A stretch of 64,000 nucleotides of DNA from the NCBI RefSeq assembly GCF_036417845.1, contig NC_089991.1, forward strand, positions 10,049,001 to 10,113,000. The letters are read 5' to 3'. The notes beneath the pieces were generated by a model, which did no database searches, was not told the origin of the DNA, and worked only from the letters and a program-made list of their open reading frames with translations. Of this stretch, positions 2,647 to 58,931 are shown piece by piece. The DNA comes from Apteryx mantelli (taxonomy: Eukaryota > Chordata > Aves > Apterygiformes > Apterygidae). Every line of letters starts with the position of its first letter. Positions within the stretch are counted from its first letter, which is position 1. The translations under genes and the position numbers were made by a program.

Positions 2647-5600
2647 GCGAGTCCAACCTTTTCTATTCCGATTCTTTTTGTTTTGCAAGCTACACTGCTT
2701 AATGCACACTGAGCAAAATTAAGCAGACAGACTGAACTGAAAGATTATAATCTTTTCCAGTGGTAGAAAAAAGGGAGTGATTTTTTCCTTATTTAGAGAC
2801 AATACATTTATACTGAGTAGTGGGTCTAGCTGAGATACTCTGTATGTTTGGTGTACTGTGCTGAGTACACACCTGAATAGCTCTAGCCTAGAAATCACAT
2901 GAGAAGTTAGTGAGTTGTATTTCTAATGATATTTACAACTTTGGCTTCTGATCCAGCAGAAACGCTTGTTTTTGACAATTTCGGGGCTTGATATTTAAAA
3001 AAAAATTAAGCCAAGTCCATTCGAGTCTCAGAAAATGATTGACTCAATGACCGAAAAGTAAGCTCAGTTCATATTTTAATCAAATTATTTTGTTTCTCCT
3101 TAGTAAAGATGCTTTTAGAAAACATGGTAGACAAAAATAACTGAATGGTTCATTGATTCTCCATAATCTGTATTTCCAGTTACCCAAGAGGAAATTGGTT
3201 GATACAATGTTAGGGCCTATTAATGCTCAGCTTCCTAAGAAAATAGTGCTTTTCTGAAATTCATCTCTTGCACTTGATCCACTCTTCAGTTAGATTCATT
3301 GCTTTTGCATCCAGCTGGCAATTTTAGGGCTATATTTTTTGCTCTTGACTAACTTCTTCGAAAGTATTCCCTGCAGCGGGTAGCAATTTGTAGCTGTAGG
3401 CAAATTAAACCTGTATTCCTTTTCTCATGAGTAACAGCCTTCTTGATGAGTTTTGGACTTTCTCATTGCCTTTTCCGCCCCAGGAACTGCGCAGCTCTAG
3501 GCTCAGTACGTGACGTGGGCTTAGTGTGTCCTGCGTGTGTCGCAGGATGGGGATGGGGTGAGGTGTCTGGGTCCAGCAGGAACAGACTGTCGCTACAGAT
3601 AGCACAGAGCCCACCCTAAAAAACACCTTAAATTCAGATGGATGTTTCTTAAGCTCCCAGCAACTCCATTGGACGAAGGTCTCCACTGACTGGCCTCCTG
3701 TGTGTTTTTCAGAAAGAGTGCATGAAAATTTGGTCGCTCCTGCGCAGCGGGAAGTTTTCCTGTCCCAATGACAACAAGCCCGTCAGCGGCCCCGACGGCA
3801 AAACCGACCTCAACAAATGCCTGATGTGCAAACGGCTGCTGTGAGTATTGGCCATTGGCCCCACTCCGCAGCAGCCAGCACGTTGGTTCGGGCCACTGTC
3901 CCAGCTCTCCACAGCGTGTCCCTTCCTCCTGCAGTGACGGTCTCGCTGTGGTCCCAGGACAGACGGACCAGTATGTAGATCTTCAGCAAACCCATGAACC
4001 CTGCCAGCTCTCTCCAGCTAGTCACGCGTTGCGGGGGACATGAGGAGCAAGCCCAGGATGAAAGCGTGTGGATTTAGTTTGTCTTGCTTCCAAACATGAT
4101 GCTTAATAGGGTGGAAACGCCTGGCTGTTAGGCAGAGCAAAAGGATGGCAAAATGCCCCCGGTTGAAGAGATGCTAAATAGCTGGGGTATGTCTCACCGA
4201 GCTGGAGCCCCAAGTCCCGGTCCCTCCCCCCACATTGCACAAGGAGGAGGTGGGGTTGGCAGGACCAGCCTTTAATCACTAGCTATTTTGGTTTTACGTC
4301 CGAGGACTGCGCACTGCTCTGTTGCTCACGCCTCCCTTTCTTGCAGGGAAAGATACTTGAAAAACAAAGGGAGTGGTGAAGTCGCTAGAAACATGAACTC
4401 CTCAAGAGAGGTGAGGCGAAACGTCACTGCCGAAGCCAGTTTTATTGGTGTGCTGGGAGGAGGGCGGCCTCGTGGCGTGCATCTCCTGCGTCTGCTCCGC
4501 TTGCTGAGCGCTCTTCCCTACCGCAGCGGGGCAGCGCGGGCTCGGCCGATGCGAAAGGTCCAGAGCTGAAAAACACCCTCTGCCTCAGCAAGAGGGTCTG
4601 AAGGAGTAGGAAGTTTGGTGCTGTCCACTGGCATAAAAGAAACCAGAAATCCTCTCAACTCCTCCCAGGCAATCTAGTCCTTATCAGGGAATTACCAACG
4701 TGGCATGTATGGTCTGTGCCCGAGCCACCGTGTAGGCTAAGGGAGATGCCTGCTTGTTTATAAAGCACACTGTTGGCATCTGACAAATAATTAATAGCAA
4801 TAATGGTGCCCTGACTAGAGCAGGGCGTGGGAGCAGGTTAACTCTAATTTGCCTTGTTTATCTTGTCGATGTACCTAGCTAGTTTTTTCATCCAGAGCTG
4901 TTTTTCTAGATAGCATATCTTTTTGTGGAGGGACTTGCCCTTTCTCCATCCTGGTCTCTTATTCTCTATAGGAGCAAATTGGTTTGCATCAGATATTGTC
5001 AGTTGCAGTGATTTATTTTTTTACACCTCCTGGTTTAATGGCATAGCTCGCTAGCTCTTACGTGCGCAAACAACTTAAAGGATTTGTAAAGCACAGCTGT
5101 TCTAAGGGAAGTCTTTTTTTTAAACATCTGGCTTACCAAAGTATGGTCCCAAGAGAGGAAGTCCATGGTGCCAGGCAGATATTTGCACTGGATGTCTTTG
5201 CTCAACCACGGTTTTTCTGTCTGGCTTTTGGCAAGTAATTTTCTGGGCCTGACTTCCCCATCTGCAGAATTGGAATAAGTCATAAAACTATCTCCTCCGC
5301 AAGGTGTGAGGGGGAAAAAAATGCATTACAGATCACATGGCAGATAACCTTAAAAAGGGGCCCAGAAAAGTGCTGTAAAAAGGATCTCGAAAGGCTTTGC
5401 GCAGAACATGTTACCTGTGCTACAGACCTGCTGACATGTCCTGAAAGCCATAGGAAAGCTGTTCAGAGGAAAGCAAGGGCAAAACTGAAAAGCCTGAGCA
5501 GGCTTTACCATGAAAGTCTCCTGCAGAAAAGAGCACTTTGCTTAAATTAATTTATAGAATCATGTTATACGGAAGACAAAAATGGTCACCTTTTACTCTA

Positions 5601-8600: not shown

Positions 8601-11600
8601 AAGGCTGTAACTTGTGTATTAAGGATGTTGGGAGAAGTGGGAGGGACCCATTACCTTATCAGCCACATCGCTAGCATGCTTTGGATAGCCCAGCATGGAG
8701 CATAACAATTAGTCGGACCATACTAGAAAACTCCCAACACGTGCAGTGCCGGCAGAGGGACCCATAATTTTTCTGACTCACTCCTCTGTTTAGATACTAA
8801 GTGGCTGGTGCTGCACACCCTCTTCTCTCGCTCACACCCAGGCTCTCCTGTGTGATGCACTTGTGACGGTTTGATACTTTCCTGGCAGGAAACCCCAAGT
8901 TCCTAGGAATCGGACCACTAAGGCAAGGAAGACAGGTTGCCCTAAACGCTGCCCTCCCTTCTGCAGGTTGACTGCAGTGAGTATCGCTCCCAGTTCGAGG
9001 CCGGTGGAAGGCTGTCCTGCACAAGGGAGAATGACCCCGTTCGGGATTCTTCGGGCAAGCAGCACATCAACAAATGTCTCATGTGCGCCGAGAAGTTGTG
9101 AGTACAGTTTTCTCTGAGCAACAACAGCAAAGAGGGGAATCCCCTGCTGCAAAAACGCAGTTTCTGCCTGTGGAGCTGCAGTTAGGTGATGCCTGGGAGA
9201 GAGTCCTGAATCCCGGTGGCCCTCCAAGGGATGCTCCTGCAGCAGGGCTCTGGTCACTGCCCCTCTTCCCATTTCCCCTTTGGTGCAAGAGGCCCAGGGG
9301 CAGGTGAGAAGCAGCGTGGAGTAGAGGAGAAGCAGGGTTGATAGCTAGCAGCCCCCTTCCTGAGGGGACTGTCTCCGCTGCGGCAGTTCCTGAGGAGTTT
9401 CCCACGCGTGTACTTTGCCTTCCAGATGCGCTCTCTACTCCCATAGTGCATCTGCAGAAGCAGCCCTGATATGAAAGCAGCCACCTGGATCCAGGATGTA
9501 GCATACAGTGGGAATGGTGAGGAGAAGGGAGAAGGTTTAGGGGTGGGGATTAGCAGCAGAGCCACCAGGAGCATGGACCGTGGAAGGGGAGGGTGATGCA
9601 TGGTGCTGGGCTCCAGGGCAGCCTTGTAATCGGGCACCACTCACGTAGCCATAGCGCTCTGTTTTTCTCCTCTCCTTCCAGCAAAAAGGAAGCCCAAAGA
9701 GGAGGCCAGTCTGGGGGAACTGTCCAGCGCAACCAGGAGCTCACTTCAGAGAGGAAAACTGAGGTGGGACCAAGTTTGCTTGCCTTGGTGGTGGGTGCCT
9801 CACCTGAGCTCAGAGAATGGGCCAGCAAGAGTGTCTGTGTGATACTGATGGCCAGGGACCATCTGTGGTCAGCCTGGTATGACGCTGGTGCAGCTAATGA
9901 TGAGGGAGAAGCAGGTCATGTTATAAAGCCACATTCATTCGTGGGCTGTGCTCATGTGTGAATGTACAAAGCGGGCATGTTCAGACCTGGCAGAATAACT
10001 CCACTTGCTTTCTCAGTGATGTGATGCTCAGTGATCTACCCAAGATAAAGGGCAGATTCGGATGTCCTGCAGTCCTGCCTGCCCTCGAATGGTAATCTTC
10101 AGTGGGTATTAAAACCTGTATGGAACAAGCATCGAATGTGCTTCTTCAGGAACAGCACCTTGCTTCCTTGGATCTGGGAGCGGGATTGGGGAAGAACGGG
10201 AACTGCTTTAGCTTTGCTTATTCTCTGGTAGTACAAGAGTTTCTTCTATGCTTGGTTAATGTGCTCCTGCCCCTTTTGCAGAAGAGTTGCAGCAGCTCAG
10301 GGTTGCAGCAGGGAGTGAGCAAGCAGCGTCCCCCCTCGGCAAGTAGAGGGTGAGTACGGCAGCAGCTGGCGTGGCAGCTTGGCCCCTGGCCTATTGCACC
10401 GGCCCTTGCTCCGGCTTCTGCAACCTTCCACATGTGGCCTGTTTTCTCTAGAAATAGTCAGGAGTTAATCATAGCAGGAATAGCTCAGTAGCACAGAAGT
10501 GCCAGTATCTGGGATGGAGAATTGAAGACTGCAGCATGTTGGGTGTTTAATATAGCATTTCTCCCCTTTGGCTGAGCTGGCTTTAGGGACCATGTTGCTG
10601 CCATTTACTGGGAAGGGCAGATGGAGCTGGGTTGTCATTCTTGGCAAAGGTGTGATTTCAGTGATGCTGGCGCCTGTAGTGGTTTCTCCCACAGACACAG
10701 GGCTGCACAGCCCTATGCACCCCCTGGGCCTGTGCAGAGGAGTGGGGCAGTGCAAGGAGCTCAGTGCAGTGTTGTGCATGCATGGGTCCTGGGAGGAGTG
10801 TCCCCGCACGTCGGTGTCATCCGTAGCCCTGGCTGGGCTCCACCAAGGCTCTTCCCCATGAGAAGAGATGCTAAGAGACGGGAATGTTTCTTGTGCAACC
10901 CTCCTCCAATTCAAAAATGTCCTCGCCTTACCTCTGCACAAAACACCAGATGATTTTTGTGTTCAAAATCCCTCTTGTGATGCCTTTGCCCAACAAACTC
11001 TGCCTTCTGGCTTGTCCCCCGCACATCCTCCCCATGCCCACGTGCACAGATGCAGCGCTTGGAGCACCGCATGCCTCTGGGCCCTGCTCAGGGCGTCCTG
11101 TGTTTTAGAGCTCTCCAACCCGTGTGGGGCTCCTTTTGCTGCTTTTTTGGAGCCTGGAGGAGGGCTGGCACAGCCTTTGCTGAGGAGCTCTGCCACCACT
11201 TGCTCGACAGTGGCTGGCGCAGCCCCTTCGCCCCCACAGCGATGCCCGGCAGGTGGAGTGAGCTGGAGGACGGGCATCTTGGGCTCCACTGGGCTTCTTG
11301 CCCGTCTTCTGTCCCGTCTCCGCTGTTGGGTGCGGTAGGGGCCCGCAGGGGGCCCACGGCCGTGGGGGGTTTGCGCTCTCCTCCCGTGCCCGTGGGGACC
11401 TGCGTTGAGCTCCCTCTCCCTCTCTCTCCCCGCCAGCCCGCAAGGAGACCTGGCTCAGCGAGGTGGGAGCTGCAACCCCGGACCGGAGCGCAAAGGACAG
11501 AGCCGAGACACGGACACCTACCAGCCGGTAAACTCTCCCGCGCGGCAGGCGAGCTGCCGCGGGAGCCGCACCGGAGAGTTTTCCCGGGGGCGCTCCGCTG

Positions 11601-25676: not shown

Positions 25677-26498
25677 ATGAAGCTAACGGGGGTCTTCGTG
25701 CAGGTGGCTGTAACCCTGTGCTGCTTCTTAGGTGAGTAATTCCTATGACGCTGCTCAGATCTCTGCAGCTGAGTCAGAGGCTAGGTTATTAGTAAAGTGT
25801 TTGAGTCTCGTAAAGTGGAGGAGAGTCTTCTTCTGTGAAGAAATATTCTGCCTGAGAAAGTGCAGCAAAAAATCAGACTGAAATTTCAGCAAGCCTCATA
25901 CAGACAACTGTTTTCATCTTCTCATTTTATAGGAATAAAATATTGAAGGAGCAGTTCTAGTGCAGGGCAAGAACTTATATGTTGAATGTAAGGGCAAAAT
26001 AAAAGTTACCTCTGTCTGAGTGAGCAATGAAAATGAAAACTTTAACTCCTAGGTTTACTCTGCAAGGTTGCTGTGCTGTTCCCTGCAGCTGAGAAGCACG
26101 TGACCGAAGATGGACAGTTTCAGTGGTCAACAGTCTTCTTAAATATGCATGTCCTCTAACTTCTTAATGTCAGATACAAACTCTTTTAGAAAAGGTTAAA
26201 CTATGAAAATGCACAATGTAAATTACCCCTATCATTTCCCTGTAACATCTTAGGAATTGATTAATTTATTGTCTCTCCCTTTCTGTCTCCCCTCAAAAGT
26301 ACAATGAAACTTTATTAATACACCCTATCACCATCTACAGTCATGATGCAATATTTTCCTAAATGCAATAAACCAGTCATCAGCGGTTGCTGGATTTAAC
26401 TATTTCATGACATTTCCATATGTCATCTCTGCATGTCAATAATTTTTTTTTCTTTTATGTCTCTGTTTTTTTTTTTAGATACTGTCTTTGGAGTTGAG
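25677..26498 (+). other. Ovoinhibitor exons 1-2: signal peptide and short linker exon
   Basis: Exon 1 is 55 nt and exon 2 (26479-26498) is 20 nt encoding D-T-V-F-G-V-E. The same lengths and nearly the same codons occur in ovomucoid. The two genes therefore share their 5' architecture by duplication. Confidence 0.92.
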
Positions 26499-29400
26499 GT
26501 GAGTTACAGATCTTTCCATTTATCCTGTTCTTTTCCTGGTCTCTGGTAGAATAGCAATAGCATGTAACCATTTGATGACCACGTGGATTAAATCTAATGA
26601 AAGCTTGGCTGTTTGAATAATATTTGCCAGTGTATGATTGAAAAATACTGCCAATTTCGTGAGAAAATAAAACATCTACCATTTTTATGCTATTTTCAGT
26701 TCATTAAATAAAACAAAGAAAGCATTAGTAATTGTATAATTCTACTATATCAACTCTTAGACATAATTGATCTACTCCTGCAGTCAAAGGCAGTAGGTTA
26801 CAGCCTCAAGAGGAAAACTAACCTAAGATGATATGCCTGAAAGCATCAAAGACCATGATTCAGATAATTTTTCTATACAGTAATACCCACAGAATTGTGT
26901 CCCTCGAATAGGTTTTACATACATATACTTAGCGATGGAAACAGCAGGGTATGTGCGATAGATTTGTCTGCAGGTTCTGCCCACACAGCTACGAGTGCTG
27001 AGACTCCGGTAGCTCACCAGAGACTGCAGCGTGCTTGGGAAACCTTTTAGACTCAGCGCTCGGGGGCTCTGGAGGAAGGCCAGGCTCCCAATTACCAGCC
27101 GCCTTCATTAGGCTGTCACCTCACCTACAGCGAGCCTTCCTCCGGGCCCCCCGGACTCCTGCCTCAGAGGAAAGCCTCATCAGAAACTTTTGCAGGGAAG
27201 ATTCACTCCTCCCGGCCGCCTGGAGGGATTCAGAATAATTCCTCTAGTTTACCTCCTGGCTGGAGCTGCAGGGGCTGCTGCTGGGGCGGGGGGAGCTCGC
27301 ACGGGGTGGGGTGTCTTTCGGCATCGCAGCCTGCAGCGGGGCTGACGGCGGCACGCCGCTTGCACAGGTCGACTGCAGCCAGTATCCCAGCAGCACCACT
27401 AAGGACGGCACCGACTGGGTAGCCTGCCCGAGGAACTTCTCGCCCGTGTGCGGCACAGACGGCTCCACATACAGCAACGAATGCGGCATCTGCCTCCACA
27501 ACAGGTGAGTCTTGCGCCACAGGCGCTGCGCCGACCGGGCAGCGCTGTGCAGTGCGCCTGGTGTCAGCCCTTGAAATACCGGCATTTCTTCGTAGACTTT
27601 AGAAAGTCCCTCGGGAGTGGGTTTGCCCTGAGCTCCCACAGCGCTTCCTCCTCCGCCTCCTGGCGTGGGCTGCTGAGGCAGGTCGCAGCTCTGAGTGTGG
27701 CTGGAGGAGGAATAAGCTGATTCTTATTGCAAAGGAGCAGACCAGCTGCTTCCCACTGGCCCACTAGAAACCCAGCAGATACTGGCAGAAGTAGCAGGGC
27801 AATAGATTAGAGGTAAGAGTGGCAGTTACGTGCTCCAAAAGGCACAGAGGAGCATATGAGTTAGCACCTAGGCACTGACTCCTCCAGTCTGGAGGCGACG
27901 ACTGCTCTTCGCAATCCCTGACAGAAGTTGTCTTCTTCTAGGCAGCACAGGAGCCATGTTGGTAAACAGCACGATGGAGAATGCGAGCAGAAACTTATTC
28001 AGGTAAGTGCAATAGCAAGGCAAAATCTTACTCTGCTGGTGTCCATGGAAGACTTCTGTTGGCTGTAGAAGTGGACAGTCCAGCCACCATATAAGAGGAA
28101 CATAGTCCAAAGGAAAATAAAACGTTGGTCTGCACAGTCCAAAGGGAATTAAAAAATGATGATAGCCAAGGCCCAGAAGGTTTTATGTGCCATATGGTAC
28201 TACGTCTCTCTGTTTTTCTAGTGCAGACTCCTAACCTCTGGACTCAGGAATAAGATGAAAATGTCATGTTGGCTGAAGGTTGGATCTCACAGCCTAGTTA
28301 GTTCCAGTAAGATCTCACGAAAGTCCTCACAAAGCCAGAATGAACAGTCCTTCTTTCTATGCCATTTTCTTCAGCATGAGAGAATTCCCACAACATTGGC
28401 TCCAACTGCTTTTGGAGCCCCAAAGGCTGAGACAGAGTAAGGATACTATAAAGAAGCATTATTTCTTTCTATCAAAAGTGAATTCTGTTCTGTTACTGCT
28501 ATTTTTACAGGTCGACTGCAGTAGGTACCGTAGAGCTACAAAAGCTGGTGAAGTCCTGGTAGCCTGTCCAAGGATACTGAAACCAGTCTGTGGCTCTGAC
28601 AGCTTCACTTATGACAACGAATGTGGGATCTGTGCCTATAATGCGTAAGTGGTGTGCGTAGAACCTCCTCTCTGGACAATCACCAATATTTAAGGCTCTC
28701 AGAAGTGTTCCTTTAAAACGCTAGTCTTTCTTCAGTCTGGGTTCTCAGTAGGTCTCTCTGGAACTATCAGTTTGCAATTTCTCCAGCCAGCTTGAGCTTT
28801 CTTCCCCAACCTCTGTGCTCATGTGTGGAATCACAAAAGAGCCAGAGGATAACACAGAGCAGAGCCATGAGCCCATCAGAATGGTATTCGTAATACTGCA
28901 GGATAAGGAAATAATGTGTTTGATGCTCAAAGAGTGACTGCTACCATCCTCTGGGCATATTCAGATTAAACTCAGACAGTTCTAGCATCCCATGCACTGG
29001 GTAGGACCTTGCTTTCTTGTTCTAGTGTCTAGACTATAATGGAGAAAGTGACTCTCAGAGCTCTCTAACCAAAGCAGCTCTTTTTTTCCAGAGAACATCA
29101 TGCCAACATTAGTAAAAAGTATGATGGAGAATGCAAGCATGAGATTGTCTCGGTAAGTGCAATAGAAGTCAAAATCCATCTCTTACTGCTGTTAGTAGAG
29201 AGAATGCCACTGACTTCCCTAGGAAATTGTGAAAGTGCCATATGACAGGGCTTACGAGGGTCCCAGCCCAGGCTCTAGCGTTCTGCAAGTGAGAGTGGAT
29301 TTCTCATCCTCCTTGCCCCGAAAGAAAGGGTGACCCCACTCATACCACACCAAAAAGACAAAGGAGACAGGAAATGGGTATGAAATATGAAGCTGTAGTC

Positions 29401-32400
29401 ACCCAGCGCTGTAGAGTGCACTTTCCTTCATACTAAGCTGGCTTTTGTGCCCAGGGAAAGGGGAGGCCCAAGAGACCAGCGTATTTAGTTCTTTGGGTGC
29501 TGGATTTTCCTTGACAGTGTGTTGTGCAGGCTGGCAGTTTTCTTTCTGAACATCACAAGCTTCTCCACCCTTTGCAACAGGGACTCAAAACTCCCATGCT
29601 AGTTGTTTTTGCAGACATAATGAAACTCATAAGAGCACTAAGCATACATATTTATAGGGTTTAGCTTATTGTATATTTATAATTAGTTCTACACGAGGCA
29701 GAACAGTCTGGTGCCTCAGGAAGAAAAGCTTATATATTTCAGAACAAAAATCTGGGGATGTAGAAAGTCCATTCCCCAACTGATAGATAACTATTTCTTC
29801 TTTATCCTTTCAAATCCCATTGCTTAACTACATGAAATCTGAACTATTAAGTAATCACAGCACTGGAGAAAAGGGAGAAAAACAATCCAAACTACAACAA
29901 TACTAGTCAGATTTTTAGCTGGTGAAAAAAGGTTCCCAACAAATTGAAGAGAATTTTGTTGGTGAGAATGGGCCCAAAGTTTTGTATGTTCCTTCTGTCT
30001 GAAGGATCCCTTCTCCAAGATGGGTCCTTTCTCTCCACTCCTAGACAACTAGGATAATGTTCAGAAATCCCATTTCTGATAGAAGATTTAGTTTAAGTGT
30101 ATCAGGGCTTTGTCCTGTTGCAGAAACTGTGAAGGCTGGGATACAGAACAGAAAGGTTTTGCATGGACTTTTCTCACATAACAATGGCTCTACCAGATCT
30201 AACTCTCCTTATTTTAATAGATTGACTGCAGCCGGTACCCAACAGAAGTCACTGAAGATGGCAAAACATTAGTATCCTGTCCAAGGGTCCTGCGTCCAGT
30301 TTGTGGCACAGATGGTTTTACATATGATAATGAATGTGGGATCTGTGCCCATAATGGGTAAGTGCCATACACAGAGCATTCCTTCTAAGTTACCAGCAGC
30401 ACTTAGCAGTCCTGGTAACAGTCCTTTTATATTTCTGCTTATGCCTATTTCTTCAAGCCTCTTAGAAACCGGCTTATTTTTGGGTCTTTCTTGAGTTTCC
30501 TTCCGATTTCCTTTTTGTCCTCATGAAGGGAAACTTGGAAGAGTCAGATGACAGCTCTTTGGATTAGTCTGTAGGCTGGCCAGTGACTGAGCAGATGAAG
30601 GAATAGTTCAGAATATCACTTTAAATTATATGTTTTTAGAAGATGTGACGAGCTTGTTAACGAGTAGAATAATGTAGCTATTTTGATACACTCCTGTAGA
30701 GGCTGAAACATTAATTTGCCAGGTATTTGCTCTATGCTATATCTGATTCATTTTGCATCTGAATATGACCAGGAGCTTAAGCATTAAGTTCCTCGACTTC
30801 ATTGTCTCCCTCTTCCAGAGAGCAAAGGACCCATGTTGGCAAAAAGCATGATGGAAAATGCAAACAGGACGTTCCTGAAGTGAGTACAATATAAGGCATA
30901 TTTCTCCTCTTGCCTATATTAACTGAAAGATTCCCTGAGGCTACCTCTACTCTGAAAGTGAGCTGGCCTGAAGCCTGGCTTTCTCCACATGTCCACTAAG
31001 CCTTGTGAGCCCCCTGCGTTCAGGACGCCTACAAATCCCATCTGTCTTGAGGCAGGTGTCATCTGGGCCCTCCTTGCCTACAAAGCCCTGGCAGATGGGC
31101 TGCATGTGAGCCGCTGTGCTAGGCACAGAGTCTACATTACAAATTCACGCCTACGCCAACCTTTGGAGTGGGGGGTGTATTCTGGTATACGGAGCACACC
31201 TGAAGTTTTGCTCCAGGCATATCAGCTGAGAGGTCCCAGAGCTCACTTCTAGGACACGCCAGCACATAAATGTGGAAGTCAGTCAGTTTGATAGCAGGTC
31301 TTCCTTTGAGGATGATCTTCAATTGCATTATCAGCGAAGTCCAATTTGTTTCACTATTTTGTTGTGTTTTTTTTATTTATTTCTGTAGTACAGAATGACA
31401 TGGGGCTGTTTCTTTCTGGTTTTCTGACCTACTTTTCAAACAGTTTTGCTCAGGTTGTAAACCCCTGGAGTCAGAAGTAAAGTTGGGTGGCATTTGGGAT
31501 TGACCTAGCTAGTTGCACTAGTGGTTGGATGTCTCACAAACTATGCAGTGCTGTGTAGTTCCTTGTGTGCATGAGGGGATTCATGCAGAGCTGATTCAGG
31601 CTGGTTTTGAGAAAGCTGAAATGCAACACCAGTGTTGTCTCGGCATCCAAGCATAAAAGACATGGAGACAAATGGGAGATTACTCTAGGTTTTGTCTCAG
31701 AAAACACATGCTTCCTTGGTGCTGATACTCCTGCTTTTTGCAGCTTGACTGCAGTCAATACGCATCAGAAGTGACTAAGGATGGTAGACCCCGGGTGCTA
31801 TGTCAGAGGATCCTGCTCCCAGTCTGTGGCACGGATGGGTTTACTTATGGCAATGAGTGTGACCTCTGTGCCCATAACATGTAAGTACAGCGCATAGGAC
31901 TTCCCTTTGGGGGTAACTAGCCATGGTTAGTGCTCCAGGCAGCTCTTCTCTAAATATCAGCATGTCTATAAATGTATTTCTATTCATCTTTCAATCTCCT
32001 GAAGCCCCATCACCTTGATTTTCTTCCCTGACCCTCTGTTAGTGCTCATCAAGGGAGCTGGGGAAGAGCCAAATGTCAATCTGTGCATACTGTGAGGGCT
32101 GTGGTATCTGAGCAAAGGAAAGGGTGGATGGGACTGCTACCTAGCACACTGTGAGGAGACCTGATATGTCTGTTACTGTTTAGGACTATGCTTGCTAAGG
32201 ACAGGGAGAAGATAGCTAATTAGGCAGTGAGATGCTTCCTTTATCATAAATATTGACTATGAATGAGGTCCACTTTTTATGGTGCCTATGTGTCCTGTGG
32301 CTTACATGGTGAGCACGCTAATGTGTGAGCACACTAACACCAACCTCTGCCCTTTCAGAGAACACGGAACTGATATTAAGAAGAGCCATGACGGAAGATG

Positions 32401-35400
32401 TAAGGAGAAAAGTCTCCCAGTAAGTCTAAATAGATGTAAAATAAGTGCTCTAGCCTGCTCTCCCTACAGTATCCAGAAACACCCTGGCTGCCTTTGCTGA
32501 GCTATCTGTCTTCCCAAATGCGCAGAGGGTTGCTGCACAGCCCTTGTGCTGGCACTGCATTGCTCCCTAGCTGCTTGCAGCAGCTGCTGCCGACATACTG
32601 TGCATCAGGGCGAGAGAGAACGGGAATAGCCCAGGACTTCAGAAACAAAATGTCCCAGTACTGCAGATCTCTGAACTGAAATCATTAGAAGCAGCCCAAG
32701 AACCAGGCAGCCTATTTTAGGGTGGTAGGAAAAGAAGGCAGAAGAACCTGTTAGATATCAGTGTATTCTTTCAGTTTTAGGATTTCCATTGCAATACACA
32801 GGCAGGTTAGAAAACCCTCATGCTCCAGTTAGCCAGGAAACCTCTGCTCCTAGCTACAGATACAGAAATAGCTTTATAAACATCCACAGTAACAATACAT
32901 GCTGATAAAATCTCTATGCATTTATTCTGCATACGCAAAGCAGCTCCAAAGCACTGAGAATAACTTCATGCACCCGGAGGGAATGCAATATGATTTGAAT
33001 AATAAAGACACTGTTATCTTTGCTTTAATTTGTCCTTGGACCATGTGAGAAATTTGGGTAATAAGAGACACTACACTGGGGAAACTATGCAAAATGACAG
33101 TAAAAGGTCAGACGCTTAGCTAATGTAGACCGACTTCCACTGCTATTAACAAGAGTTTGCCTGTTTATCCTCAAATATTTGAAGTGCCACTTTTTATATA
33201 TTGTAAGGCTTTTTACAACACAATCGGGTGAAATGGTCCTTGCTGCTATTTTGAAACTGCTGAAACTAAATCTCAGATTTAGTTAGCTCTATGTCAAACT
33301 GGACTTAATGTAAAACCCTTTAAATCTGATTCCTTGGGTGAAATGTTTGTTCTAAAACCTAGTCAATTTTCTTCAGGACATGGAAAACTTGCATACATAC
33401 TTGTCTGGGAAAATGATCTTTCCTGTCAGCTCTTCTTTTCTTCCCTCTGTTAGCAGACAATATTGAAGCCAACTAAAATTACTTACTTCATTTCTAAAGG
33501 AAGACTAAAATTAAAATACAACCCTATTTTTTCTCTAGCAGAAGCTTTTAAAATCTGGAGGAATAGAGCAGGCAGACTGCAGATGAGACATTTTTGTTTC
33601 ACAGCGGCTGACTTGGCTCTGCTGTTTTATCTCCCCAGGTTGACTGCAGTAGATATCTGTCCAGTACTACCAAAACTGGTGAAGCCATCTCATCCTGCCC
33701 CTTTGTCCTGCACGAGGTCTGTGGAACAGATGGTGTCACCTATGGCAATGACTGCGCCCTGTGTGCCCATAACTTGTAAGCCCTGGCAATCCTCCGCTGA
33801 GCAATCAACAGTCCTTCACAGCGCCTGCTGCCTGGACCAAGAGGGAGGGAGTCACTCACTGAGTTTTCTTAACTCCCCTTTCTCTCTCTTCTAGAGAATT
33901 TGGAACCAATGTAGGCAAAAAGCATGATGGAAAATGCATAGAGGAAGTTCCTCAAGTAAGTGAAACTTAAAAAAAAAATAAATAGGAGCTTGAGGTGATG
34001 CTGAGTGCATAACTTAAGTGCTGGCTAGTTTTGATAGCCTGGCCTCCACCGGGTCACATAGCTCATGCTGCCCTTCCTTCCACGGGTGAATACCCACCTC
34101 CTGACAACAGGAATATTGTGCACTTCCTGCACACAGTCTTAAGAAGAAAGAAAGGAGGACAGGTGAGGAATGAGTTCTGAGACAGGTAACAAATGATTTA
34201 AGGCACTATGAGAAGAAATCCCTTTCCCACAGCAGTCCATCATAGGGCAGCAGGAACTTAGCAGTCTGTTTTGGCAATATGGGAAGGGAACACAGAGGAC
34301 CCCAGGGTGCCTCTGTATTTTCTTCTTTCTGCAGACTTAAGTTTTACAAAAGGATGTTTTGCAAAGATTAGAAAATCAGTGTGTCTGTGTTTTGAATGTT
34401 GATTCCTAATGTCCCAGGGGATTCAAACCCCTCTCTGTTTTTCTTGCAAATTCAATGTAATCTAATGTATACCAACAATGAATCTTGTAAAAATACCAAA
34501 TTAACTATATTTGACCAGCTCTAAATGATTTACACCCACCAAGGAATAGAAAAACAAAGTTGTCTCATTAGCATGTGTTTGAAAGAGTCAACATCCTGAG
34601 TCAGATATTTCATTTCTATACAAACAGAGTATGAAATGTCATCCTTTGTTTCCCTAGTACACACTGTGCTCAGACCGGGTGAGACACATAAATCAGTAAG
34701 GAAGAACTCACACTGGGGAAACTAGGGGTGCTAAAATGCCAGTTCTTCAACCAGTGTAAATCAGCCTCATTTGCTGTCAGTCCTCCTGGCAGATTTCAAC
34801 ACTCGGAGCCAGCCCATTGGAACAAAAGGCCTGTTGGCACGTCCCCCCCCAGCTCTTGTGGGCCATGAAAAACTCCTTGGTCACGGTCAGCTCTCTAGTA
34901 CGGACTGGATAAATCATTCCATTTTGATTTGCAGATTGTTGTTAAGCTGCATTTTATAATATCGCAGTAGGCTCAGCGAGGTATAAGGGCGTCACAATAA
35001 ATACAAAGCTGAGGGAGAGATGTGTCCCTTCAGCCTCATTTCAGCCTTCTCCAGCTGAAGGCTCTGGAAGGAAATTGCCATGTTACTACTGCTTGGGTTT
35101 CAATGGAAGAATGAGTTAATATATAACCCTAATTTATCCTATGGCCGATCCAAAAAGGCAGGGGTATAAGCGGGGGTGTTGGGTCTGGGCGCTGCTGGAG
35201 CAGAGGCCATACCAGAGCTTTTGCTGTGTTTGCTTCCCAGCTCAACTGCAGCAAGTACCAAACAGTCACTACAGATGACGGCAAGCATCTGATGCTCTGC
35301 CCGATGATCTACGCTCCCATCTGTGCTACCGATGGCGTCACTTACGCCAGTGAATGCACGCTGTGCGCCCACAATCTGTAAGTACACACACTTCTCCTGG

Positions 35401-36900
35401 GGGCACTGGCAGTGGCTGTGGTTTGACGGGTCCCCACGAACGCCGAGCAGCATGCCGAGGCCTGCATCTGAAATGCTACGTTGGACGGGGGAGCCGAACG
35501 CCACCGCGACCTGCCAGCTCCCCTGTCTGTCCCTTCAGCCTCCCTCGTTTCCCTGCTGCCCGGGTTGGTGTTCGAGATGGGCATTCAGCAAGGACCAGGC
35601 CACTGCTCCGAGTCCCGCAAAGGGGCATGCGGTGGCTGGCAAGACCACTAGTCCCAAAGACACGGCCCCTGTCCATAAGATCACACACTAATACGGCACA
35701 GGCGATGCTAAGCTAGTTTGTCTGAAAGTCGCTTGTATGCTACATGTGAGTCAGGCTGTGGTCTCGCGCTGCAGTTGTAACGGCGAAGTTTGACACTAAT
35801 GTCAGCGTCTCTTTCCTCCAGAGAGCATCGGAGCAGTCTTGGCAAAAGAAACGACGGAAGATGTGCAGAAGATGTTACAAAAGTGAGTGAGAACAGAAGG
35901 AAACAAGGAGCCAGGGCCCGTGTCTGTTACAGTCCTGGGGGCTGTGCTCTGCTCTGAGTTACAGATGGGGGAGCGGTGTTCAGACCTGAGGAGATCACCT
36001 GGGAATTTCACAGTGGTCATAAAACAGCCATCATCCATCCCATTGCTCCACAGCAGGGCAAGGAGGAGTGTGGTAGTGAACAGGAGTAGTATGAGATCAC
36101 ATCTGCCACCAGGAAGAAACTTTTTGAGTCAGTTATTATCCTGATCTCACGACAGAGTCTCACTTCTTGGGGTGGTGTCATTCCTGTCGCTGGGGACTGC
36201 AGTTTGGTCTCAGGCAGGCCACAGAATCTCTGTCATTCCTCTGTCTGCAGGATTATTGCAGCAGCTTCCAAGAACCCTCGCTTATATGCACCATGGAATA
36301 TATGCCACACTGTGGCTCCGACGGCAAAACATACAGCAACAAATGTATTTTCTGCAATGCATTCCTGTACGTACAGAAATAAGTCAGCTCTGTTGCATGG
36401 TCATTTCCTGCACCTGCTGAAAATGCAGGCCTGTTTCCTTAACATGGTTTTGACTGACTGGTTATGGGCATGTGCTGGACGTTTCTGGTGCACCATAAAT
36501 TGTGCAAGGAGATGGGGGGGGTTTAAAGGAAAATATGAAGGACCCATTTCTGTGGATCTGTACATGGCTTCCTGGTTTTAACGCCAAAGCCATTTTACTC
36601 ATGTACACCAGCACACAATTTGTTCCAGAAGCACATCAGGGCATGGGAAAAGTATTTCATGAAACAGCTGGAAGTGTGTGAAATCTTATATCTTTCCTTT
36701 AATGATAATAATGAAAGGAAGCAGCTGAGATTTTGAGAATGTTCATCATTAGGCAAGATTAAGTCAACACTTCTTGTGCTAGTGCAGTGGGTAACAGTGC
36801 TTCTGTGCCGAATATGCTCTGTGTCTAATCCATCTCTTCTCCTTTTCTCACCAGGGAGAGCAACAGGACTCTCACACTCAATTCTCGGAGCACATGCTAA
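25677..36900 (+). CDS. OIH: Ovoinhibitor, seven Kazal domains
   Basis: Secreted egg-white and plasma inhibitor of trypsin-, chymotrypsin- and elastase-like proteases. Sixteen exons: 25677-25731, 26479-26498, 27368-27504, 27942-28002, 28511-28644, 29092-29152, 30221-30357, 30819-30879, 31744-31880, 32359-32419, 33639-33775, 33895-33955, 35241-35377, 35822-35882, 36251-36366, 36855-36900. All phases join and give 473 codons plus stop, about the length I recall for chicken ovoinhibitor. The signal peptide reads [18 protein letters not shown]. Every domain has six cysteines. The P1 residues in order are Arg, Arg, Arg, Arg, Phe, Met, Met, the pattern I recall in chicken. The ATG was chosen for its signal peptide, the TATA distance and ovomucoid homology. 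It is likely hormone-controlled in oviduct, inferred from the family and upstream modules. The gene looks intact. Confidence 0.95.
27368..28002 (+). other. Ovoinhibitor Kazal domain 1
   Basis: Exons 27368-27504 and 27942-28002. The reactive loop reads [10 protein letters not shown] with P1 Arg, so a trypsin-type site. The core exon and its flanks are much richer in G+C than the other domain exons apart from domain 6. Confidence 0.93.
28511..29152 (+). other. Ovoinhibitor Kazal domain 2
   Basis: Exons 28511-28644 and 29092-29152. The reactive loop is [10 protein letters not shown] with P1 Arg. The core is one codon shorter than most others. The bases after the second exon (GTAAGTGCAATAG) match those after domain 1, evidence of a shared duplication. 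Confidence 0.93.
30221..30879 (+). other. Ovoinhibitor Kazal domain 3
   Basis: Exons 30221-30357 and 30819-30879. The reactive loop is [11 protein letters not shown]1 Arg. The second exon encodes a V-G-K-K-H-D-G-K-C motif shared with domain 5 and, in altered form, with relics near 46 kb. Confidence 0.93.
31744..32419 (+). other. Ovoinhibitor Kazal domain 4
   Basis: Exons 31744-31880 and 32359-32419. The reactive loop is [11 protein letters not shown]1 Arg. All six cysteines are present. Confidence 0.93.
33639..33955 (+). other. Ovoinhibitor Kazal domain 5
   Basis: Exons 33639-33775 and 33895-33955, separated by the shortest intron of the gene (119 bases). The reactive loop is [11 protein letters not shown]1 Phe, a chymotrypsin-type site. 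The usual Pro before V-C is replaced by Glu, as I recall for the chicken domain. Confidence 0.93.
35241..35882 (+). other. Ovoinhibitor Kazal domain 6
   Basis: Exons 35241-35377 and 35822-35882. The reactive loop is [10 protein letters not shown] with P1 Met. C-A-T-D-G replaces the usual C-G-T-D-G. An N-C-S glycosylation sequon opens the domain. The surrounding 0.5 kb is G+C rich. Confidence 0.93.
36251..36900 (+). other. Ovoinhibitor Kazal domain 7
   Basis: Exons 36251-36366 and 36855-36900 (stop TAA). The reactive loop is [11 protein letters not shown]1 Met, with nine residues between the first two cysteines. An N-R-T sequon follows the fifth cysteine. This is the closest relative in the window of the single domain at 57.9 kb. 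Confidence 0.93.
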
Positions 36901-37025
36901 CTACACTGGAGCCCAGCTCAGGAAGAAAAACTCTCTTGTGTGTGACTCCCCATGGGCTGATCTTCCCTAACAGCTTTCCTTCAGCTTGTCTTGTTTCCTC
37001 CTATCTCCTGAAACACTTTTTGTTC

Positions 37026-37031
37026 AATAAA
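37026..37031 (+). terminator. Poly(A) signal AATAAA of ovoinhibitor
   Basis: AATAAA lies 125 bases after the stop codon, giving a short 3' UTR. Confidence 0.75.
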
Positions 37032-41077: not shown

Positions 41078-41207
41078 AGCTGCAGCACATAGCACAGGGG
41101 CACCGCTGAGAACGGCAGTCAGGGCCCCGTGGCCAAGCTCCAGACCAGATCTGTGGCACAGATGGTTTCACTTACATCAATGAATGTGGGATCGGTGCCT
41201 GTAATAT
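41078..41207 (+). pseudogene. Pseudogene A Kazal core relic
   Basis: The second half is well preserved: CTGTGGCACAGATGGTTTCA then AATGAATGTGGGATC, matching ovoinhibitor domain 3 or 4. The first half is strongly diverged. One core cysteine is lost and an unpaired one gained nearby. Confidence 0.75.
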
Positions 41208-42531
41208 GTCAGTCCGAGAGAAAGAGCTTGCTTTCCGAGTGACAGTCTCCTAGCCCCTGGCCTCTCCCTCATGCTTTCCAATTCATCCTCTGTTTTCCTC
41301 TCCACTTGTTGTTTGTGCTCAGGGGGAAATTGCGAAGTTTTAGCAGAGAAAAGAAAATAGCCAGAGTGGAAATCCAAATGATGCAGCATATTCAGATGTC
41401 ATAGACTTGTTGACTGATAGGATTATAATGTCAGAGATGCTAAAACCACTTCATTGTTGGTGGTTAACTCAGATGAACTCTCCTTCACTTGCATCATCTG
41501 TGAGTTTATTTGCATTCCCAGCATCTTGCTTCAGGAAAATGGACATACTGAACCTCTAACAGCAGACTTTCCCTCCTCCCTTTCTGTCCTTCAGAGGACA
41601 GGGGACACGCTCTGACGAGAAACATCAGGGGATACAGGAACAGCAGTCGTTCCAGTGAACAGGAACGAAGGCAAACCAAGACACTGCCTGAGCTCCTGTT
41701 GCTGTCTGTGGCAGCATCCCAAATGATGTCAGCCGGATGCTGAGCAGGCAGTGTAGGAACAGGCATAAGTGATGCATATACCTTCTGTTGGCATTTTATT
41801 CAGCAGTGATTTAACACTAGCTTCCTAATATTGATCTTTACCACAGCCTGCATTCAAACGTATGAAGAGAAAGATGGCAGAAAGATACAAAATATGAGAC
41901 AAATAGGAGAAATATTTCTTTGCCACTGAAGTGTGCACAAACAATCTTTTCTGATAACATCAGGAAAGCAAAGCGGATCCTGTTTTAGGACTAGAAAAGG
42001 AGACTCAGAAAATCCCTGCAGGTATCAGTGCACTCAGCTCTCTTGACAGAAGTTTTGCAAACGTGGCACAGTGCCAAGCCACAAGCCATATAATCAAATG
42101 CAGCATAGCAGTCATCATGAACAAACTAACATATTAAGTCAATGACTGCTTTACTTTGCCAGTGCAATAGTTTGTAGCTGGTAAAAGTCCTGCTACATAC
42201 CTCACTGCCATAACTGTGAAACAGTAAAATCCTGGAATTCAACAACATGTTCCTCTCTGTCAGCACCAACGGTGCTTCACCCACATCCAGCTGCAAAGAA
42301 TCAGCCCATGTTCCCGTTAAAGTTCAGCCCTGCTGAACAAATTGAATTGCTCCCCTTTCTTTTGATGTTAATGTTGAAGGAAATAATATTCAGCGGTTGT
42401 GACCCTAACACTTTTGAAGCTATGGGAACTCTCTCCATCCAGTTTCACCTATTGCAGCCAAGTGACAGTTCAGGCTGTAGCACCAGGATGCATCCTGTCT
42501 CTCACCCTGTTCTCCTTCTCTTTCCCACCAG

Positions 42532-52400: not shown

Positions 52401-54674
52401 GCTTCTCTTGACTAAATTAAAAGGGTCTGTGTGGCAGATGTTGCCTTGCAGAGAACAGCAACTAACTTAAGGTGCATCTACCTTGTCAAATGACCCAGCT
52501 CCTATTTCTTCCTAACACCCTGTCCCCTCTCTTGTCCTTAGCATCATGCTTTATAAAACAGCGCTCTGGCAGGCTGTTGCACCACCTTATATTATATCTG
52601 TCTCTGAACAAAAATGTCACAAAGCATTTGCCTTCAAGTGCATGTCTTCAAGGCCATTGGGTACCACACTGCATGTCCAGGAAAGTGGACAAAGACTGTC
52701 TTGTGTGGAGGGGGCTAGCTCTGAGCTGTGTGGATGTGAGTCAGTGTGGTCCAGCTTGCTTGCTGCGGAGACAGGGGTTGTTCCCTGAGCTGGTGTTTAG
52801 AGCAGAGCAGATACAGGCTAAGCTGGATGTATATTGTATCCCATATGTTACACCTGAGGCCGATTAGTATTACTGGAGCACAGTTTAACAGAGCAGGTTG
52901 CTCACAGAGCTCCCTAACACTTGCCTCTCCTTTTCCAGAGAACAGGGTACCAGCGTTGGCAAGAAGTATGATGGTAAATGCAAGAAGGAATTTGCTACAG
53001 TAAGTGTGAATTATGTAATGAAGGACCAGGTGTTAGCCCCACTGATGTCAGTGAAAAGAATGCCAGTGTCTGTAGCAGCCTGCAGACTAGGAGCAGACTA
53101 GGAGCATAGCTTCAGCACAGTGAAAGATTTTGCTTTCTCCACACATAATACACATTATCCACACTCTTCATGTCAGAAAAAGAGAGTGACTGCACAGGAA
53201 GGGATCAGTAAAAAAAAAAAAAAAAAAAAAAATCAGTAGCAGAAATAAGTCATCAGGACAGAACTGCAAATAAGAACGCAGAATGGCTTTTGAGATCAGG
53301 CTGATGGTCCATCAAGCACATGGTGACTTGATGAAGAGCCCAACCTTCAGCAGTGGTTGAAAGGACTGTATAGGAGACAGTAGGAACAGAGTGAATATGT
53401 ACGGCTCTCACCAAACACTCTTCCAACCTCCAACTCTTCTCAGCTGATGGACTTCTTAAACTAGATGTGCTTTCTATGTATCCAATGAGCCTCGCTGGAT
53501 TTCTCTTCCATGCATATGTCCAGCCTCTTCCTGGACCCGTGTAAATATTTTGCACTATGATATCCCTGAGTAAGTGTAGTACCCATTGCACAAAGAAACA
53601 AAATTCCACTCTCATAATATCTAGGTGATCTTCCCATTGTAAGACTATATGAGAGACATTGGACCCTTATATCTATCAGCGCCTCCGCCTCTCTAGATGC
53701 TAGGATTTTTCCAGTTAATTTCCTGGACAGGTTGGAACATGATGCAATCTGAGCATGGCATGTTCACTGAATGAACTGCTGCTGCTTAGAAATGCTGTGG
53801 TCAGGCTATGATATAGATCTCTTTAAACAGGAAATTATGCTCTATTTTTATATTATTAAATTTTTCTAGCATAGGAGAAACTGGCACCTCAGCTTATGTC
53901 ACATTATGCAAGGAAGTTAATTATTTTATTTAGGAAACAGATTGTTATCTTTATCATTGAAGCTGTAGCCAGGAGTTCAAGCCCATTTGCTATCTACTCC
54001 TTCGTATCTTTCATATTAGACTTCTTTTTTCCAGGTTGACTGCAGTGACTACCCTAAACCTTTCTGCTCGCTTGACTATATGCCTCTGTGTGGCTCTGAC
54101 AGCAAAACATACAGCAATAAGTGTGACTTCTGCAATGCGGTTGTGTATGTACAAACATGGATCACATTTGTGTTATTCACTACCTCCTACAGGCACAAAT
54201 TTGCACAGCTACTGTTTCCCTGCTTACTGACCAGCGTTGACTAGGGATTTGGGGTAGAAGAGAATACCAGGCACCATGCCAACCATTCATTTTTTCATCT
54301 GAGCACACAAAGGGCTATGCCTGGTTTGTTAGTGTGAATGGTTTGAACACCATTAGCCTTAATGGAGTTTTCTCACTTATTGCAAAGAAAATTAAATTTG
54401 AAGTTTCATTATAGTTTCCCAAAATATTTTTAGTCTTAAGAATGAGTTAAATCATTTCACTCATCTCTTAATAATGAAATGAAATAGCTAATGGGATTCT
54501 CTGAGTCTGAGATCCTTTGGCTCTGGAGCAGGATCCTATCTAATGCCTTCTGTAGGAGCCAAGGGAAAGGATAGATTAGAGCAGGCAGTACTCTGTCTAA
54601 TCCATTTTTTTCCTCTCCTCATTTTCAGAGAGAGCAATGGGACTCTCACTTTAAGCCATTTTGGAAAATGCTAA
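49474..54674 (+). CDS. SPINK7: Ovomucoid, three Kazal domains
   Basis: Major secreted egg-white trypsin-inhibitor-family protein. Eight exons: 49474-49528, 50506-50525, 51394-51530, 51671-51728, 52022-52158, 52939-52999, 54035-54144, 54629-54674. Phases join cleanly for 207 codons and a stop, close to the 210 I recall in chicken. The signal peptide opens [12 protein letters not shown]. Domain 3 ends in the hallmark [16 protein letters not shown]1 residues are Glu (domain 1), Lys (domain 2) and Leu (domain 3). N-glycosylation sequons are N-T-T in domains 1 and 2, N-V-S in domain 1, and N-G-T in domain 3. The donor of exon 6 can be used six bases later, adding Val-Ser, as is known for chicken. 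The gene is intact. A TATA box and module U4 lie upstream. Confidence 0.96.
49587..49626 (+). repeat. A-rich tract in ovomucoid intron 1
   Basis: Two runs of A are broken by AAGAAAAG. This is simple low-complexity sequence and may be the tail of an old retroposed piece, but no body is recognisable. Confidence 0.8.
51394..51728 (+). other. Ovomucoid Kazal domain 1
   Basis: Exons 51394-51530 and 51671-51728. The reactive loop reads [10 protein letters not shown] with P1 Glu. Sequons N-T-T and N-V-S are present. The donor of the core exon is GTACGT. Outside the loop it is nearly identical to domain 2. Confidence 0.94.
52022..52999 (+). other. Ovomucoid Kazal domain 2
   Basis: Exons 52022-52158 and 52939-52999. 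The reactive loop is [10 protein letters not shown] with P1 Lys, a trypsin-type site. Exon 6 ends in A-T before GTAAGTGTGAAT, which holds a second GT six bases on. Confidence 0.94.
53211..53232 (+). repeat. Poly-A tract in ovomucoid intron 6
   Basis: An uninterrupted run of about 22 A bases. No target-site duplication or element body was identified beside it. Confidence 0.75.
54035..54674 (+). other. Ovomucoid Kazal domain 3
   Basis: Exons 54035-54144 and 54629-54674. It opens [11 protein letters not shown] and has the reactive loop [10 protein letters not shown] with P1 Leu, as expected for inhibition of chymotrypsin- and elastase-like enzymes. Seven residues separate the first two cysteines, the classical ovomucoid third-domain spacing. 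Confidence 0.96.
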
Positions 54675-56450: not shown

Positions 56451-56457
56451 TATATAT
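56451..56457 (+). promoter_or_regulatory. TATA box of the single-Kazal gene
   Basis: TATATAT lies 70 bases upstream of the ATG at 56521 and 106 upstream of the ATG at 56557, inside a CA/TA-rich stretch. Confidence 0.5.
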
Positions 56458-56520: not shown

Positions 56521-58693
56521 ATGTGCAGACACTTAGGCACCATTAAGACAGCAGGCATGTTGATGCTGTTTGCTCTAGCCCTTTGCTGCTTCCCAGGTGA
56601 GTAACTTTACTGACTAGTGCCTATTGCTCTGTGTTTGAGTAAGTTCTGGCTGTTTTTAAAACTACAAAAACATCCTCAGACTGGAAAGGGTTTCATTCTA
56701 CAAGGACTTATTTACTCCTAGAAAGATGGTGTTGAAAAGACTTGACATCAGAGACTATCACTTATGGGGTAATATTTTAGCAACAAAACTGAGTGGGTAA
56801 GAACAACTGTGGGAACAGCTCTACGATCAACGCTAGTTTATGCATAATGAAAGAAGTGACATGTTTGTGGTACAACCAGGAGACTCAGACATCCAGTGTT
56901 TAAACTCTGAAATGTTGCAGAAACATGAATTATTTTACTGAAAGGAACTGAACTTTTCTTGTAGGCATCACAAACTGAAAGATGTGATTTGAGAGCTGGA
57001 ACAGTTGTAGAAGCTTTATAGATATTACATCTCACAATATACTTTCATTATTTAAGCACTACTAAAGAAATGCATATAAGAAGCTGTCCCAGGATACTTA
57101 ATAGCTGTATGACCCTGTTTTTCTCACTAACCTGTTTATCTTTTAGTACATGTCCTGCTTCATCCTCTGAGACATAGAAAATGTATTTATCTTCTTTTCC
57201 TTCATTTTATGGACCCTTTTTCATCTTGGCTGTAGCCCTCATAATGTACACAGCAATGTTGCAACATACAATATGGTACAAAATTTTGCATAACATTATT
57301 TTTATCTAAGAAGTCATTTGTTAACAGTGAATTAAAGGTTGTATATTCGGGACATATATTTGCAGATTTTAAATATACCAGTATCCATGACCTGTATTTG
57401 TGTCACAGTTTCTACTGTTTTTTCTTTCTACTGTTTTTTTCTACTGTTTTTCTACTTTTCTACTGTTTTTTTTCTTTTCTTTTCAGATACCATTGCAGTG
57501 AAGGCGAAGGTAAGGGACAGTTCTTTCTAGTTATTCTCCATCATTTATTTCCTGAAAGCAGTTTCAATAGAAATCATTGTTAATCACAGTGTGATTGAGC
57601 ATTTGAAGATCCTGAGTCCTCCAGCTGTTTGAGCAATATTTGCCACACATATTATGGGGTGAAATTTTCATTTCAGTCCGATAGTTTCAACAAGTAGTGC
57701 AGGACTCAGTGAGTGCCCAAGTTGCTGTCACAGTTACTGCAGCAGCATTTATGACATTTACACATGCTCTACATTGCTAGAGGCTGGAAGGGCGCATTAG
57801 CAACACACCACTGTACTCCTGCCCTATCACTCAGCTCTTTCTAGGCTTATGCTACCAGCCAGTACCAGAGGAAGCCCAGGTGGATCTCTGGTCTCTCCTT
57901 AACATCACCTATCAGTTGCTGAGAGATCTTTTGTAAACCTGATGTTGTATCTATCTATCTACAGGACTACTGCAGTCATCATACCATACCCAGAGCTTTC
58001 TGCACTTTAGAATACATCCCACACTGCGGGTCTGATGGCATAACATACGGCAATAAATGTTTATTCTGCAATGCATTTCTGTATGTATGAAAATAAATCT
58101 TTTCACTAACTAAACAGCAAACTAACTTAGCTTACACTAACTAATCTATCTGCCCTTCACTGGGAGAAGTGAAGTTCTTTTATTTTGTGTTTACCTGTTT
58201 CCTTATCAGTAAGGGCTGGTGATTTTTATGGGGAGATTTTGCCAGGAATTCCTTTCTTTGAGGTAGAAAGAGGTAACAATAGTAGAGTTAAGGAATTTGC
58301 TGAAAAGCTTTCTTCCAGCATACAAAGTCTATTTCCTACAGACTATTTGTTCTTCCTTTAAATTAAGTCTTTATCTTGTCTTTGAATGTTAGCAGTAAAA
58401 GCAAATGGCTGTAATATCTTTCAGAATTTTTCTGTTTTGGTTAAGTTCCTCTATGATATATCCATCACTGGAGGGACAGACAAACATTAAAAGTCCAGAT
58501 GCTCTATCTCTGAGATACCTATTTTCTCCTCCCCAGGAGAAGTCGTCGCACTCTTGCCTTGCTATATCTTCAAGAGTGTTACCTCTTCGAAGGGCTTCAA
58601 ATCAGAAAGAGAAACCTTCCCTTGCAAGGTTTCCTATGGCAGATGCTGCCCGAAGACTCGTCCCGAACCTTGAAAGCTCCTGATGAATCCTGA
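56521..58693 (+). CDS. Single-Kazal-domain inhibitor, ovoinhibitor-domain-7-like
   Basis: Predicted small secreted inhibitor. Exons: 1 ending at 56596, 57487-57509, 57965-58080, 58537-58693. Exon 3 encodes [19 protein letters not shown], with nine residues between the first two cysteines as in ovoinhibitor domain 7; P1 is Leu. Exon 4 gives R-S-R-R-T-L-A-L and the sixth Cys at exactly the position of ovoinhibitor (E-S-N-R-T-L-T-L). The ancestral start (55 nt before the exon 1 end, at 56542) is now ATT. In-frame ATGs lie at 56521 and 56557, giving 123 or 111 residues. The ancestral stop TAA after the last Cys is TAC, so 37 extra residues follow. Frame and splice sites are otherwise intact. It is either a live gene with moved ends or a young pseudogene. 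Exon 4 is the least certain part. Confidence 0.62.
57409..57480 (+). repeat. Minisatellite of TTTCTACTGTTTTT-type units before exon 2
   Basis: Several imperfect copies of a 13-16 base unit built on TCTACTGTTTTT lie end to end just before the TTTCAG acceptor at 57486. They form an unusually long pyrimidine tract. Confidence 0.8.
57948..57963 (+). repeat. ATCT short tandem repeat at an acceptor
   Basis: ATCTATCTATCTACAG abuts the acceptor of the Kazal core exon at 57965. Length changes here could alter splicing strength. Confidence 0.7.
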
Positions 58694-58925
58694 AATCTCT
58701 ACTAAATAACAAAAACAGCATTCATATCCTGCGTTAATACTATGTTTCATGCTGTTTTTTCCTCAGCTGTCATGTGATTATATCACAGCAACAATCCTGG
58801 GGTGCAGGTATTAATAGTGAATTAAGGAAGAGAAAATATATTGTTCTGATTTACAAAGAAATCAACTCCATCTACAAAGGCAACAGGACACTCCTGAGGG
58901 CATCTTATTTCATTCAGGTTTCTGA

Positions 58926-58931
58926 AATAAA
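58926..58931 (+). terminator. Possible poly(A) signal of the single-Kazal gene
   Basis: AATAAA lies about 235 bases after the predicted stop codon at 58691-58693. It is the nearest canonical signal. Confidence 0.4.

Follow-up and report, generated by a model that had tools for sequence, protein, structure and literature searches.

Does a gene whose start, stop and polyadenylation signals have all changed round an intact domain have ends that were reset under selection, or is it in the first stage of gene death? The question is raised by a single-Kazal, four-exon gene located 3' of ovomucoid, within the bird SPINK cluster, in a 64,000-nucleotide stretch of Apteryx mantelli DNA (GCF_036417845.1, contig NC_089991.1, positions 10,049,001 to 10,113,000 of the forward strand; hereafter, the window). 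Because three altered end signals surround an intact domain and four intact paralogs are adjacent, the locus is a clean test case. Loss of a stop and a shift of the start are recognised routes by which proteins gain ends. If its function has been kept, the gene would be a compact natural case of the resetting of all three end signals; with it the avian SPINK cluster around ovomucoid grows by one member, and the kind of system that it represents is not new. A Kazal gene with changed ends beside ovomucoid was not described in the abstract openings and passages of the literature searched, and the passages found in PMC6767445, PMC8742010, PMC6693190, PMC9363672, PMC4666066 and PMC9237712 contain no description of this gene.

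The gene has exons at positions 56521-56596, 57487-57509, 57965-58080 and 58537-58693 (+), which splice to 372 nt in one open frame of 123 codons plus a stop. Each of its three introns is GT-AG (six of six splice dinucleotides), with the phases of ovomucoid and ovoinhibitor. The coding part of exon 1, taken from an upstream in-frame ATG, is predicted to encode a signal peptide (hydropathy, the only property scored here, marks the N-terminus as hydrophobic, with a GRAVY of 1.14 across 32 residues) and is followed by the donor gtgagt. Exon 2 is 23 nt long (DTIAVKAK), compared to 20 nt in ovomucoid and ovoinhibitor. The Kazal domain begins in exon 3, which encodes cysteines I-V and the reactive-site loop CTLEYIPHC, and ends in exon 4, where Cys VI (58577-58579) is followed by a 37-codon tail and a TGA at 58691-58693. 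Every coordinate in a preliminary description of the gene, made from the letters of the DNA, was correct, and its statement that splice sites, phases and cysteines (six of six) are intact holds. A pyrimidine-rich tandem array of TTTCTACTGTTTT units at 57409-57480 lies just 5' of exon 2 and abuts its polypyrimidine tract.

One Kazal domain spread across four phase-conserved exons is the organization of a SPINK gene. What the gene lacks is a start codon in the usual place and a stop right after Cys VI, both of which are found in all four paralogs and are usual, rather than strictly defining, features of SPINK genes. The three or seven tandem Kazal domains of an ovomucoid or ovoinhibitor gene are also absent, as 56521-58693 contains a single Kazal exon.

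The four reference paralogs, all of which belong to the cluster, were ovoinhibitor (25677-37030; seven domains, exon 1 at 25677), ovomucoid (three domains, exon 1 at 49474), a multi-Kazal gene designated X (Kazal exons at 65350, 66211, 67629 and 68683 in the numbering of the window, 3' beyond its end; their grouping as one gene is assumed), and a SPINK6-like gene further 3' (72833-76926 in the same numbering, also outside the window; Kazal exon at 76012), which has an MKATG start, a stop after Cys VI and an AATAAA. Ovomucoid and ovoinhibitor were identified independently. Exon 1 of gene X and of the SPINK6-like gene was found with a search that required an ATG, and their last exons were found with a search for a cysteine plus stop, so that the start and stop evidence from these two genes rests on homology and is less independent than that from the other two.

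When the five exon 1s were aligned, positions 56542-56544 (+) read ATT in a column that is ATG in four of four paralogs, confirming the loss of the ancestral start codon that had been reported at 56542. Both in-frame ATGs previously noted near this position are present, one upstream at 56521-56523 (+), which opens the coding part of exon 1, and the other downstream at 56557-56559 (+), where it is an alternative start. A TATA-like element, TATATAT, is located at 56451-56457 (+), and a transcript start placed ∼30 bases 3' of this element is predicted to lie near 56480. There is no ATG between 56475 and 56521, and the frame that begins at 56521 reads in frame into the Kazal exons with no stop ahead of them. 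Thus positioned, the transcript start would give an mRNA in which the AUG at 56521 comes first. The distance from the TATA-like element to the old ATG position, 91 bases compared to 81 in ovomucoid and 77 in ovoinhibitor, fits a nine-base insertion in the leader. An insertion of this length bearing the new ATG was seen in four-gene alignments of the 5' ends and was absent from an alignment of five shorter 5' ends; it is not claimed here.

At the other end of the gene, positions 58580-58582 (+) read TAC where the paralogs have TAA, TAA, TGA and TGA, in agreement with the reported change of the ancestral stop after the sixth cysteine, and the 37 residues said to be added before a new stop at 58691 are those of the extension that ends at the TGA. 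The number of changed end signals is three, one beyond the count in the preliminary description: in the five-gene alignment, the hexamer at 58705-58710 (+) is AATAAC, in register with an AATAAA in four of four paralogs, in which the poly(A) hexamer lies 111-128 nt from the first base of the stop. The next canonical AATAAA, a possible replacement signal, is at 58926-58931 (+).

Random sequence of the local composition stays open for 37 codons with a probability of about 0.10; the length of the tail is therefore a chance expectation that needs no explanation. The tail is hydrophilic (GRAVY, -0.63). It had no match in Pfam at E values up to 1, and its one match in PDB (E value, 0.58) was a designed protein and was taken as chance. 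A novel function for the tail was considered and is not claimed, given the chance-like length and the lack of a detectable protein relative. What stands of the earlier proposal of a rewired inhibitor with a new C-terminal tail is that a tail is encoded; a new function for it is not supported. Comparison of the tail with the ovoinhibitor 3' untranslated region (UTR) gave 51 identities in 111 bases at an offset of -2 and 34 at an offset of 0, compared to a next-best value of 40 and a mean of 28 over 301 offsets, which supports a UTR origin of the tail. The ovomucoid 3' UTR gave no clear signal (35 at an offset of 0; best value, 40 at -17). The five-gene alignment of the tail region continues through the poly(A) hexamer. 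The tail also carries an in-frame dibasic run, RKR, which could be a processing site.

The protein has the core C-G-x-D-x-x-T-Y-x-N, its six cysteines are spaced as in Kazal domains, and as a whole it scored 48.9 bits against Pfam Kazal_1 (PF00050; cut-off, 21). A search of NCBIfam with the whole protein returned no families. When the C-terminal Kazal domains of the five genes were aligned by codon, all 15 of the columns that are invariant across the four paralogs proved to be kept in this gene, and leave-one-out counts of deviations were 0 for this gene, 0 for ovoinhibitor domain 7, 1 for X4, 3 for ovomucoid domain 3 and 5 for the SPINK6-like gene. No interior frameshift, stop, lost splice site or lost cysteine was found. 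On the other hand, the Kazal_1 score of the domain alone was 52.1 bits, the lowest of the five (the others scored 62.7, 64.6, 59.5 and 68.0), and conservation within the domain is lowest in exon 4. The coding identity of this exon is 18/46 nt (39%) to ovoinhibitor and 22/46 (48%) to ovomucoid, compared to 30/46 between ovoinhibitor and ovomucoid. When 401 offsets were compared, the match to ovomucoid at the offset of the gene model tied for best, and the match to ovoinhibitor was no better than the best matches at other offsets. Exon 4 does retain its acceptor and its phase, as well as Cys VI and the columns S41 and L47. The earlier characterization of the interior as clean is thus correct for the frame, splice sites and cysteines and too generous for exon 4 and for the overall match to the Kazal model.

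The gene is present in a single copy. A search of the 1.5-Gb genome with the exon 3 protein, in which 22 candidates were scored, recovered the exon itself at 100% and then ovoinhibitor domain 7 (36251-36366 and 36855-36900) at 69% over 39 amino acids; the other 18 of the 20 places among the matches listed were weaker, and no second copy was found by this search. The DNA of exon 4 matched only itself. In a tree of 16 Kazal exons, the gene was sister to ovoinhibitor domain 7 with support of 89/77, a value that is not starred (as is true of all 13 inner branches) and not conclusive. Other likenesses to ovoinhibitor domain 7 are nine residues between Cys I and Cys II and the PHCGSDG and CNAFL motifs, and the exon phases, TATA-like element and exon 1 layout resemble those of the ovoinhibitor gene. 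In contrast to this gene, with its one Kazal domain, shifted ends and tail, ovoinhibitor has seven domains and keeps the ATG, stop and AATAAA. By these comparisons, domain 7 of ovoinhibitor is the closest relative among the candidates scored, and the best explanation is that the gene is an old tandem relative of ovoinhibitor's last domain.

The third domain of ovomucoid (SPINK7; 54035-54144 and 54629-54674) belongs to the same domain family, and the loop sequence CTLEY is also found in PDB chains of turkey OMTKY3. Over 43 nt, exon 1 shares 86% identity with exon 1 of ovomucoid in this genome. Ovomucoid differs in having three domains, two residues fewer between Cys I and Cys II, and no tail. 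Because the CTLEY loop is that of turkey ovomucoid domain 3, Leu is predicted at P1, with the P1 numbering in the loop being the one that we take to apply. With this residue, which turkey ovomucoid domain 3 also has at P1, the expected targets would be elastase-, chymotrypsin- or subtilisin-like. SPINK6, like this gene, has only one Kazal domain, in which nine residues separate Cys I from Cys II, and a match to SPINK6, together with an entry for chicken SPINK6 in a table of PMC8742010, initially suggested that the two might be orthologues. This was rejected: the gene scored 47.6 bits against solved SPINK6 (2n52), compared to 89.5 bits for the downstream SPINK6-like gene, the last exon of which matches 2n52 through the final residue.

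Tests of selection were limited by divergence. In pairwise Nei-Gojobori comparisons of exon 3 with the four paralogs, pS was 0.69-0.81 and pN was 0.21-0.30, inside the range found among the other paralogs (pS, 0.53-0.89; pN, 0.20-0.42). For exon 4, pN was 0.40-0.52. Synonymous sites are near saturation in these comparisons and the ratios are of little use, so the counts of conserved columns and of intact features carry the weight. A three-gene codon model gave a higher omega for this gene than for the other two in each of three fits (0.19 versus 0.035, 12 versus 0.039, and 0.38 versus 0.165), a difference that was not significant in any of the three data sets (2lnL, 1.3, 3.43 and 0.88), and an omega of 1 on its branch was not rejected (2lnL, 0.62, 0.22 and 0.77). 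Since its branch lengths show saturation, this model has low power in both directions.

The arrangement of the changes was compared with neutral decay by simulation, in a post hoc test with assumed rates (transition bias of 3; 0.12 indels per substitution). Loss of the start, stop and poly(A) signals together with a clean interior, defined by cysteines, frame and splice sites, had a joint probability that peaked at 2.9e-4 at d = 0.06. When the 15 conserved columns were also required to be clean, the peak was 1.2e-4 at d = 0.04. If the interior was held and the ends were left free, which is a limiting case, the joint probability was 0.10 at d = 0.2 and 0.21 at d = 0.3. Plain neutral decay is thus a poor fit to ends that are broken round a clean interior.

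The preliminary description left two possibilities, a functional inhibitor that has been rewired or a pseudogene of very recent origin, and the results lean to the inhibitor, because all 15 invariant columns are kept despite near-saturated synonymous sites; the poor fit of neutral decay points the same way. We consider it slightly better than an even chance that the gene encodes a functional, secreted single-Kazal (SPINK-type) serine-protease inhibitor, the ends of which have moved and the inhibitor domain of which is still under selection. Considerably less weight, although enough to make it the chief competitor, goes to a gene that was functional until recently and lost its start, with the stop and poly(A) signals lost before or after, so that the interior has not yet been damaged. 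Loss of three conserved end signals that four of four paralogs keep is what such a gene would show, and the diverged exon 4, the lowest Kazal score of the five and the higher, nonsignificant, omega estimates on its branch are in keeping with it; the disabling interior mutations of a pseudogene are not found. With cysteines only, the simulated probability of a clean interior was 0.053 at d = 0.06 and, without indels, 0.092 at d = 0.075 and 0.042 at d = 0.1; with the conserved columns also required it was 0.066 at d = 0.04 and 0.017 at d = 0.06. The gene may be a pseudogene with an age below about 0.04-0.06 substitutions per site. What makes decay improbable is the combination of three changes at the ends with none inside, and the in-frame upstream ATG means that loss of the old start need not have silenced the gene. 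If start loss alone was disabling, this objection from improbability weakens.

Two further explanations have less in their favor. The gene might function with a different first exon, last exon or both, in which case ATT, TAC and AATAAC would lie in disused sequence and the tail would never be made. Decayed end signals beside a constrained exon 3, with exon 4 the least conserved part, are what this arrangement predicts, but the features that exon 4 retains, from its acceptor to the L47 column, and the donor and TATA-like element that are kept at exon 1 make it improbable. An error of assembly or sequencing at the start and stop codons deserves mention as the sequence comes from one assembly only. 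Three separate point errors would be needed, exactly at the end signals, while the end signals of neighboring genes on the same contig read normally, and we regard such an error as very improbable.

If the gene is a working inhibitor, the order of events that we infer would begin with the appearance of an in-frame AUG at 56521, within the 5' leader. This AUG, the first in the predicted mRNA, would have taken over initiation, giving a longer signal peptide that would be cleaved on secretion. Because initiation had moved upstream, the old ATG would then have been dispensable and could drift to ATT. In a separate change, loss of the stop would have carried translation into the former 3' UTR, adding the hydrophilic 37-residue tail past Cys VI, a position that linkers occupy in the inner Kazal domains of ovomucoid and ovoinhibitor. 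The AATAAA at 58926 probably became the new poly(A) signal. Inhibition by the mature protein would follow the standard Kazal mechanism, with the predicted Leu at P1. That start, stop and poly(A) were all relocated round a constrained core in this way, with an extended signal peptide, a tail born from the 3' UTR and function retained, is a claim to which we give almost, and not quite, an even chance. Counted against it are that both the replacement start and the replacement poly(A) site are predicted, that three lost end signals are also the look of a dying gene, and that the nine leader bases, present in one alignment, are absent from another that includes a further gene. A possible role in egg white is suggested by the neighborhood.

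Other Kazal sequences in and beside the window were also observed. Between ovoinhibitor and ovomucoid, a relic Kazal fragment at 41083-41208 (+) has Gly in place of Cys V, lacks Cys II and is preceded immediately 5' by an in-frame TGA, while a donor GT is still present. This is probably a dead Kazal exon, and its missing cysteines and TGA contrast, within the same cluster, with the clean interior of the single-Kazal gene. A further Kazal exon is located at 14004 of the window. LEKTI-like Kazal exons occupy 3.8-9.1 kb in the left part of the window, where three LEKTI/SPINK5-like exons without Cys III were found at 3761-3841, 6081-6206 and 8967-9098 (+), two of which are of the CTRENDPVRDSSGKQH type and one of which is CPNDNKPVSGPDGKTD. 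There seems to be a SPINK5-like gene at the left end of the window. Beyond its other end, the Kazal exons of gene X at 65350 and 66211 are near-identical and lie ∼860 bases apart, apparently as a result of a recent tandem exon duplication or as an assembly duplicate.
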